A stretch of 64,000 nucleotides of DNA from Halorubrum sp. CBA1229 (lineage in GTDB: Archaea > Halobacteriota > Halobacteria > Halobacteriales > Haloferacaceae). The DNA is taken from NCBI RefSeq assembly GCF_003721435.2, contig NZ_CP054585.1, positions 1,488,001 through 1,552,000 of the forward strand, written 5' to 3'. The notes below the pieces were generated by a model, which searched no databases, was not told where the DNA came from, and saw nothing but the letters and a program-made list of their open reading frames with translations. Made by a program: the position numbers and the translations under genes. Positions 5,513-27,321 of this stretch are shown here, in pieces. The number at the start of each line of letters is the position of its first letter. Positions within the stretch are counted from its first letter, which is position 1.

Positions 5513-6403
5513 CTACTCGACCAACCGCTCGATCTCGGTGACGAGGATGCCGCTCGCGCCGACCTCCTTCAGCTCCGAGATGGTCGCGAACACGTCGCGC
5601 TCCTCGACGACGGCGTGGACCGCCACCATGCCGTTGCCGTTCTCGTCGGCCTCGACGTCCATCACCGTCGGGCCGCCGAGTCCGGGGATCACGTCTTTCA
5701 CCGCGTCGAGCCGGTCTTTCGGCGCGTTCATCATCAGGTAGCGCCGGCCGTCGGCCGCGAGCACGGACTCGAAGGCGGTCAGCACCTGCTCGACCTTCGG
5801 GTCGGCGACCACGTCCGGGCGCGCGAACAGCCGCACCGAGGAGGCGAGCACGTCGTCGATCACGGCCAAGCGATTCACCTTCAGGGTGGTCCCCGTCGAG
5901 GTGATGTCCACGATGGCGTCGGCCATGTCGACGTGGGGGGTGAGCTCCGTCGCGCCCGTCACGGTGACCACGTCGGCGTCGACGCCGACTCGGTCGAGGT
6001 AGTCGCGGGTGACCGCCGGGAACTCGGTAGCGATCGTTCCGCCGACCAGATCCGCGACGGTCGAGACGTCGCCGTCCTCCGGCGCCGCGAGGACGAGCTT
6101 GCAGGAGCCGTACCCCAGGTCGAACAGGTCGACGAGGTCGTCGTCGGCCGCGGACGCGGCGTCGTCCGCCACGCCGCCGGACTCCGCGGCCTGGTCGAGC
6201 CCCGTGATCCCGAGGTCGGCCGCCCCGTCGCGGACGTACTCGGGGATGTCGGCCGCGCGCGCGAACAGCACGGTCACGTCGGGGTCGACGGTGTCGGCGT
6301 ACAGCTGGCGGTCGGCGGTCTCCTCGACGTGGAGCCCCGCGCGTTCCAAAAGCGAGAGCGTCGGGTCGTGCAGGCGGCCCTTGTTGGGGACGGCGATGCG
6401 CAT
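5513..6403 (-). CDS. hisG: ATP phosphoribosyltransferase (long form)
   Basis: First step of histidine synthesis, joining ATP and PRPP. The 296-residue length shows the long, self-sufficient form with a C-terminal regulatory ACT-like domain that binds histidine. Seen: [11 protein letters not shown] at the start, [17 protein letters not shown], the PRPP loop region [14 protein letters not shown], and a C-terminal segment [21 protein letters not shown] typical of the regulatory domain. No other his genes are near, as usual in haloarchaea. Confidence 0.93.
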
Positions 6404-25614: not shown

Positions 25615-27321
25615 ATGGGAACGACTGACAAACCTGACCGCGGCGGGCTGTACGAACGCCGGATCGGAACGCCGACGACGAACGACGAGGTGAACGGCTA
25701 CTGGCTGTTCGGGTTCGGCGTGCTGCTCGGGCTGGCGGGCGTCGCGCTGTTCTTCCTCACCGAGGCGGCGACGGCCACCCGCGGCATCGCGTACGCGCTG
25801 ACGGCGCTGGCGCCCCCGTTCGTCATGCTCGGGGCCGTGATCCGGTTCCCGCTCCGTCGAGCGGGGACGTACCTCGGGTACCTCGGAACGGCGGTGAGCG
25901 TCCTCGGCGTGGTCTGGTTCGTGAACATCTTCCCGGGCGGGTGGTTCACCGCGTCCGGCGATCCGACCGTGATCGCGCTGTACGGCGTCGGGCTGCTCCT
26001 CATCGGCCTCGCGGGGACGGTCGTGCCGCTGCTCTCCGACCCGGTGTACGAGGACTACGAGCGGATGCGGGGCGAGGCGGCCGCCGCGACGGCCGAGCGC
26101 GACGAGACGAGCGCGGAGCTGGAGGCGACCCGCGAGGAGCTGGCGTCGACGGAAGAGGACCTGGCGTCGGTCCGCGAGGAGCTGGCGTCGACGCGGGAGG
26201 AGCTGGCCGCCGCGGAGGGGCGTGCGGCGGACCTCGACGACGAGGCGGCGACCGCGCACGCCGAGGCCGCGTCGCTCCGCGAGAGCAAGGCCCGATTCGA
26301 GCTGTTCGAGGACGCGGGCGGGAAGCCGCGCTGGCGGCTCCGCCACCGCAACGGCAACGTCATCGCGACGTCGGGACAGGGGTACAGCAGCCGCGGGAAG
26401 GCCCAGAAGGGGCTCCACAGCGTCCGGCGGAACGCGCTCGGCGCCGGGCTCCTCCGGATCGAGACGGCGCCCGAGGAGGGGGAGACCGTCGCCGCGGACG
26501 ACGGCCCGGAGCCCGAGGACGCGACGGCGCCCGACGTGGCGATCCCGAGCGACGACGAGGGGATCGAGAGCGTGGCGACCTTCGAGCTGTTCGAGGACGC
26601 GGGGGGGAAGTGGCGCTGGCGGCTCCGCCACGACAACGGCAACGTCATCGGCGACTCGGGCCAGGGGTACGCCTCGAAGTCGAACGCGGAGCGCGCGCTC
26701 GCGCGGGTCCGCGAGCACGTCGCCGCGGCGGACTACCTCCGGGTCGACCCCACGGCCTTCGAGATGTTCCGCGACGCGGGCGGGGAGTGGCGCTGGCGGC
26801 TCATCCACGAGAACGGGAACGTGCTCGCCGACTCGGGCCAGGGGTACTCCTCGCGCTCGAAGGCCCGCCAGGGGCTCGACAGCGTGCGGTCGAACGCCGC
26901 CGAGGCGGCCCTCGACGACCTCGACGCGGAGGACGGGGGCGACGGGGACGCCGACGAGACCCCGAACGCGACGTTCGAGCTGTACGAGGACAAGGGCGGC
27001 GACTACCGGTGGCGGCTCCGCCACCGCAACGGGAACATCGTGGCCGACTCCGGGGAGGGGTACGCCTCCAAGTCGAACGCGCGAGACGCGATCGAGCGCG
27101 TCCGCGACTACGCCCCGGACGCCGACGTGCTGGACGTCAGCGACGCCGCCTTCGAGATATACGAGGACGCGGGCGGGGAGTGGCGCTGGCGGCTCCGCCA
27201 CCGCAACGGGAACATCGTGGCCGACTCCGGGGAGGGGTACGCCTCCCGGTCGAACGCGGTCGAGGCGGTCACGGGCGTGAAGGCGAACGCCCCGGGCGCC
27301 GGCGAGGAGACGGTCGCGTAG
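25615..27321 (+). CDS. Membrane protein with coiled coil and five DUF1508 (YegP-like) repeats
   Basis: 568 residues. Four membrane helices (about 27-50, 55-75, 81-103, 117-137) lead into a coiled coil (about 145-222, with SAELEATREELASTEEDLAS-type heptads). Then five DUF1508 domains start near residues 226, 322, 381, 453 and 513; each has FE(L/I)(F/Y)EDxGGxxRWRL.H.NGN(V/I)..(D/T)SG.GY.S(K/R)..A. Between repeats are acidic linkers. DUF1508 proteins usually have one or two copies and form dimers; function is unknown, sometimes linked to stress. Repeats 4 and 5 share a 60-base identical stretch. The N-terminal part resembles the haloarchaeal DUF7139 type. ATG 25615 precedes the first conserved residues. 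Confidence 0.82.
   Translation: MGTTDKPDRGGLYERRIGTPTTNDEVNGYWLFGFGVLLGLAGVALFFLTEAATATRGIAYALTALAPPFVMLGAVIRFPLRRAGTYLGYLGTAVSVLGVVWFVNIFPGGWFTASGDPTVIALYGVGLLLIGLAGTVVPLLSDPVYEDYERMRGEAAAATAERDETSAELEATREELASTEEDLASVREELASTREELAAAEGRAADLDDEAATAHAEAASLRESKARFELFEDAGGKPRWRLRHRNGNVIATSGQGYSSRGKAQKGLHSVRRNALGAGLLRIETAPEEGETVAADDGPEPEDATAPDVAIPSDDEGIESVATFELFEDAGGKWRWRLRHDNGNVIGDSGQGYASKSNAERALARVREHVAAADYLRVDPTAFEMFRDAGGEWRWRLIHENGNVLADSGQGYSSRSKARQGLDSVRSNAAEAALDDLDAEDGGDGDADETPNATFELYEDKGGDYRWRLRHRNGNIVADSGEGYASKSNARDAIERVRDYAPDADVLDVSDAAFEIYEDAGGEWRWRLRHRNGNIVADSGEGYASRSNAVEAVTGVKANAPGAGEETVA

Follow-up and report, generated by a model that had tools for sequence, protein, structure and literature searches.

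A gene on the forward strand of Halorubrum sp. CBA1229 (25615..27321, with ATG at 25615 and the stop codon at 27319-27321) encodes a protein of 568 aa in which a four-helix membrane anchor and a coiled-coil stalk precede five DUF1508 repeats. Positions are those of the window, the whole stretch of 64,000 nt that was analysed. On the sequences compared, the repeats comprise one lone A-type copy and then two B-A pairs in a fixed order (A|BA|BA), and the five-repeat state is old and fixed in related haloarchaeal loci. The preferred reading of this layout, put at about an even chance, is an oligomeric scaffold in the cytoplasm, tethered to the membrane, whose fixed A|BA|BA head presents YegP-like pairs.

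The combination of membrane anchor, coiled coil and five DUF1508 domains had been proposed in an earlier note on this DNA and is supported. Pfam profiles matched DUF7139 (PF23600) at aa 12-136 (25648..26022; E 1.6e-22) and DUF1508 (PF07411) in five stretches (E 1.7e-88), both over the curated cut-off, and the NCBIfam profile of the HVO_2922 family (NF041908) also matched five stretches, likewise over its cut-off (E 1.3e-121). The AlphaFold model contains four membrane helices (aa 23-48, 54-77, 82-105 and 117-140), one 78-residue helix (aa 145-222; 26047..26280) and five beta-beta-beta-alpha domains with the DUF1508 fold of solved members (Foldseek matches to 2k8e, 2k49, 6q2z, 3bid and 2k7i). 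Mean pLDDT was 77 and pTM only 0.35 for this full-length model, so that the individual domains are credible but the way they are arranged is weakly supported. The gene stands alone, with an amidohydrolase gene and ligA on the opposite strand upstream and convergent genes next downstream. No operon partner was found by neighbourhood comparison; the ligA/amidohydrolase order was not retained outside Halorubrum and Halobellus, and outside Halorubrum there was no conserved neighbour that would indicate a partner.

Profile matches and type assignment delimit the five repeats. R1 (26293..26451), the lone A-type copy, is separated by an acidic linker (26452..26577; in Halorubrum and Halobellus, 41-46 aa lie between the two repeat models) from a first pair consisting of R2 (26578..26736, B-type) and R3 (26755..26913, A-type). 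A second acidic linker (26914..26970), with a length of 0-32 aa among relatives as judged from repeat spacing, leads to the second pair, R4 (26971..27129, B-type) and R5 (27148..27306, A-type). This spacing of one repeat, a longer linker, a pair, a variable linker and a second pair is combined with linkers of 6-8 aa within pairs in every intact protein and of 0-46 aa between units. HMMs for the two types were trained on R2 and R4 (B) versus R3 and R5 (A), with R1 and the proteins L062, L064, L065 and L068 outside the training set. R1, R3 and R5 were of type A and R2 and R4 of type B in 27 of 27 species, with the excluded R1 scoring on the A side in every one. Three held-out proteins from other haloarchaea (L062, L065 and L068) gave a + - + - + pattern, and the held-out three-repeat protein L064 gave + - +, equivalent to A|BA.

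A phylogenetic tree separated 52 B repeats from 78 A repeats and HVO_2922 (support 0.75), and the nearest neighbour of a repeat was almost always the repeat at the same position in another species. Repeats grouped by position across Halorubrum, Haloarcula and Halosimplex. This indicates that the five-repeat array predates these genera, and the A|BA|BA order itself was present in at least seven genera. A repeat was on average 63-78 % identical to its counterparts at the same position in other species and 47-59 % identical to the remaining repeats of its own protein, and R1 was highly conserved (mean 78 % between species). R1 also carried a net charge of +3 to +9 in all 27 species, whereas the other repeats averaged +0.2 to -5.1; a basic domain at 26293-26451 is unusual in a halophile protein whose stalk and linkers are acidic. 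Structure prediction, which the earlier note had put forward for contacts between domains, gave a divided result. Both domains of YegP (2k8e) were superposed on the full-length model with a TM score of 0.82 on the target and an rmsd of 2.2, at the pTM of 0.35 given above, whereas the isolated R4-R5 model did not reproduce the YegP pairing (TM 0.40, rmsd 13.5, pTM 0.45).

Repeat number was compared using one genome per species. The five-repeat protein was encoded in 25 of 35 Halorubrum genomes, no ortholog was found in seven, and the rest had a single repeat (two genomes) or a stub (one genome). In the named genome collection, exactly five repeats were present at 38 of 42 related haloarchaeal loci, spanning Halorubrum, Halobellus, Halonotius, Haloarcula, Halomicroarcula, Halosimplex and Halomicrobium; the 38 include two loci interrupted by a stop or frameshift (L121 and L125). 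At this level, the free variation in repeat number expected from the earlier note is mostly refuted. A constant number with independent divergence of the repeats, which the note had named as refuting its idea, is largely what was found. Within Halorubrum the number changed only in three genomes, where fusion with R5 collapsed the array to one or two repeats. Halorubrum sp. Hd13 (L102) retains R1 and an R2/R5 fusion, and H. californiense (L106) and G015 (L088) each retain one R1/R5 fusion. All three versions are in frame and keep the R5 end, the outcome expected from recombination between repeats. In a fourth genome, H. yunnanense (L111), only a truncated anchor is left and the repeats are gone. 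Absence or collapse in some Halorubrum shows that the five-repeat gene is dispensable. Other haloarchaea encode DUF7139 proteins with 1, 3, 4, 7, 10 or 13 DUF1508 repeats, and five is not extreme beside the relatives with 10-13.

Among the broken orthologs, L121 has an in-frame stop in the R3/R4 interval (6234-6236), L125 a frameshift past R1 (5582-6032) and L099 (genome G022) a frame break in the membrane domain. An apparent copy-number expansion in Halorubrum was rejected, as the genomes with 11 DUF1508 matches owe them to an additional protein unrelated to this one, in which DUF1508 repeats accompany glycosyltransferase 2, and not to a lengthened array. This membrane glycosyltransferase was seen in two Halorubrum genomes (L144:2373-5468 and L145:1821-5036); in L144, three DUF1508 stretches pass Pfam and four were counted in the genome search, and the C-terminal domain is DUF6360.

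The earlier note had drawn attention to about 60 identical bases shared by R4 and R5. The identical run is exactly 60 bases, at 27010..27069 in R4 and 27187..27246 in R5, one to two bases from the approximate figures given there. This is more than chance would give: between any two different species, the longest R4/R5 run was 41 bases (18 species). In the nearest relative, SD626R, 50 of 60 bases are shared with this tract in R4 and 54 in R5, and 53 of the 60 agree when the two repeats of SD626R are compared with each other. Within-species runs exceeded between-species runs for repeat pairs 2-4, 2-5, 3-4, 3-5 and 4-5 (permutation p = 0.0005 each), and the excess was small for pairs involving R1. 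The tract reflects local gene conversion, a process that recurs in patches among R2-R5 and overlies the old array. Of the two origins first offered, recent duplication or gene conversion, only the latter holds, because the clustering of repeats by position across genera rules out a recent R4/R5 duplication.

The stalk helix was assigned as a coiled coil from the AlphaFold helix, the placement of L, V and M, and length changes in steps of seven residues. Each of the nine L/V/M residues in aa 145-224 occupies one of two heptad positions, and the two core positions nearly cancel at period 7 in the power spectrum. Stalk length was taken as the number of residues between the end of helix 4 and R1, with identical sequences counted once. 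Lengths of 61, 68, 75, 82, 89, 96, 103, 110 and 124 residues, all 5 mod 7, were found in 32 of 34 Halorubrum and Halobellus proteins, although shared ancestry means that these are not independent events; the nine length states require at least eight changes. The two exceptions (L053 and L055) differ from one another by 7, share another phase and fit an addition of 11, the usual stutter length. Haloarcula-type entries (L061, L125-L127, L129, L131, L132, L134 and L135) were 4 mod 7 in nine of nine cases. The heptad pattern is kept despite the change in length. However, tandem repeats of 21 bp (7 codons, 4.6 copies) lie within the stalk at 26111..26207, and slippage of this unit could alone give heptad steps without selection for phase. 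Such selection is a fair but unproved interpretation of the sequences. Several five-repeat relatives (L137, L138 and L140-L142) have a stalk that is short or does not resemble a coiled coil, so that not every member needs one.

The mean number of K and R residues in 37 proteins was 2.2 on the N side, 0.4 in loop 1-2, 2.7 in loop 2-3, 0.3 in loop 3-4 and 1.4 on the C side. An even number of helices with positive charge at the N side and loop 2-3 favours a C-in topology, which would put both ends, and the array, on the cytoplasmic side; of the two orientations left open at the outset, facing the cytoplasm or outside, the former is preferred. The genome that contains the window encodes two more DUF7139 proteins (G000:C1:953262 and 2301601). 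DUF7139 was also found with DUF7140 (L143, in the same genome, and L152) and with a long DUF1508 array (L071). In other archaea, a DUF7139-like membrane domain is fused to CHAD (L147:1647-3449, minus strand; L148:1601-3523, plus strand), the match in L148 being below the curated cut-off. The anchor is therefore common to unrelated C-terminal domains. CHAD is reported to be a polyphosphate-binding module (PMC6537752).

In the proposed scaffold, the DUF7139 domain would fix the protein in the membrane with both ends inside, and the heptad helix would assemble a parallel homo-oligomer, most likely a dimer. R1 would sit at the end of the rod. It is of the A type, like single-domain HVO_2922 with its two chains in the PDB entry, and the two R1 copies of a dimer may meet and pair across chains. 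Beyond the flexible acidic linker, the two B-A pairs would each pair within one chain as in two-domain YegP. In a dimer, one R1:R1 unit would then be surrounded by four YegP-like units, an arrangement that would confer avidity for a putative ligand. Since no other repeat is clearly basic, R1 is the first candidate to touch an anionic partner. With the modules and their order kept among relatives and the rod changing by heptads, the protein looks more like a scaffold built to a pattern than like an array free to vary.

A different account would treat the protein as a drifting accessory repeat protein, whose array and stalk vary through slippage and recombination while copy number is under little selection, its regularity a by-product of the DNA repeats. 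The 21-bp repeats, the conversion among R2-R5, the collapses through R1/R5 and R2/R5 fusion, the missing orthologs in seven Halorubrum genomes and the broken ones at L121, L125 and L111 are all consistent with drift. This account is nonetheless improbable. Against it stand the five repeats in A|BA|BA order shared by at least seven genera, the clustering by position and the conservation of R1, and no four- or six-repeat protein of the same layout was seen in Halorubrum. Equally unlikely is a membrane-bound sensor, in which DUF7139 senses the state of the membrane and signals through the coiled coil to the DUF1508 repeats, whose binding then changes. Signal transfer would need phase-locked stalk lengths, and the stalk keeps heptad phase, as signalling coiled coils likewise do; DUF1508 proteins are moreover linked to stress (HVO_2922 with perchlorate, PMC12175516; YegP homologues with capK/capS, PMC13373217). 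Against a sensor stand the lack of an enzymatic or known output domain, the absence of an operon partner and the retention of five repeats in relatives with a short non-coiled linker.

An array outside the cell, acting in surface contact or adhesion, would be in keeping with the multi-copy arrays on stalks that surface proteins commonly bear. It is very improbable given the C-in charges and even helix number, and two expectations also speak for the inside: DUF7139 carries polyphosphate-binding CHAD in other archaea, and the same repeats follow glycosyltransferase 2 in L144. A narrower version of the tethered scaffold, that of a molecular ruler, is tentative and less likely than not. Here, a dimeric coiled coil would change length in evolution only by steps of 7 (or 11) residues that keep its phase, and may set A|BA|BA YegP-like modules at a fixed distance from the membrane, with an anchor type that also tethers CHAD in other archaea.

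The DUF1508/YegP family is widespread, without established function, and was present in the E. coli, Caulobacter, Haloferax and Methanosarcina controls. YegP/UPF0339 (PF07411; PDB 2k8e and 2k49) is likewise a tandem DUF1508 pair, one solved pair superposing on part of the full-length model, but is small and has neither a membrane anchor nor a stalk nor additional copies. HVO_2922 of Haloferax volcanii (NF041908; PDB 6q2z), 52 % identical to the matched domain in the structure search with the model, is a single A-type DUF1508 like R1, but is a stand-alone protein of 60 aa whose PDB entry holds two chains. Other DUF7139 proteins (PF23600) share the four-helix anchor and differ in carrying DUF7140, CHAD or no named C-terminal domain. 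The long proteins with 10-13 DUF1508 copies (L071, L072 and L074-L076) have the same anchor and repeat family but no separate heptad stalk before the repeats, and their copies are more numerous and more divergent.

Literature searches found nothing on DUF7139 by name and no paper with DUF1508 in its title or abstract. The published hints found for DUF1508 are stress-related only: perchlorate induces HVO_2922 (PMC12175516), and in 57 operons YegP homologues come after capK/capS, which are activated by DNA damage (PMC13373217). The fixed order of the array and its membrane rod suggest that DUF1508 modules act in pairs and groups close to the membrane. The three natural collapsed versions are ready-made alleles for testing the array, and the DUF7139 anchor shared with CHAD proteins offers a way to ask what the anchor contributes to both. 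DUF1508 repeats also occur after glycosyltransferase 2 (L144) and after an Amphi-Trp domain (L155). The loci are L155:2170-2667, with an Amphi-Trp domain fused to DUF1508, and L080:3081-3785, both on the minus strand; in the latter case, in the genome that contains the window, an ORF that looks by eye like an Amphi-Trp protein adjoins the two-domain DUF1508 gene.
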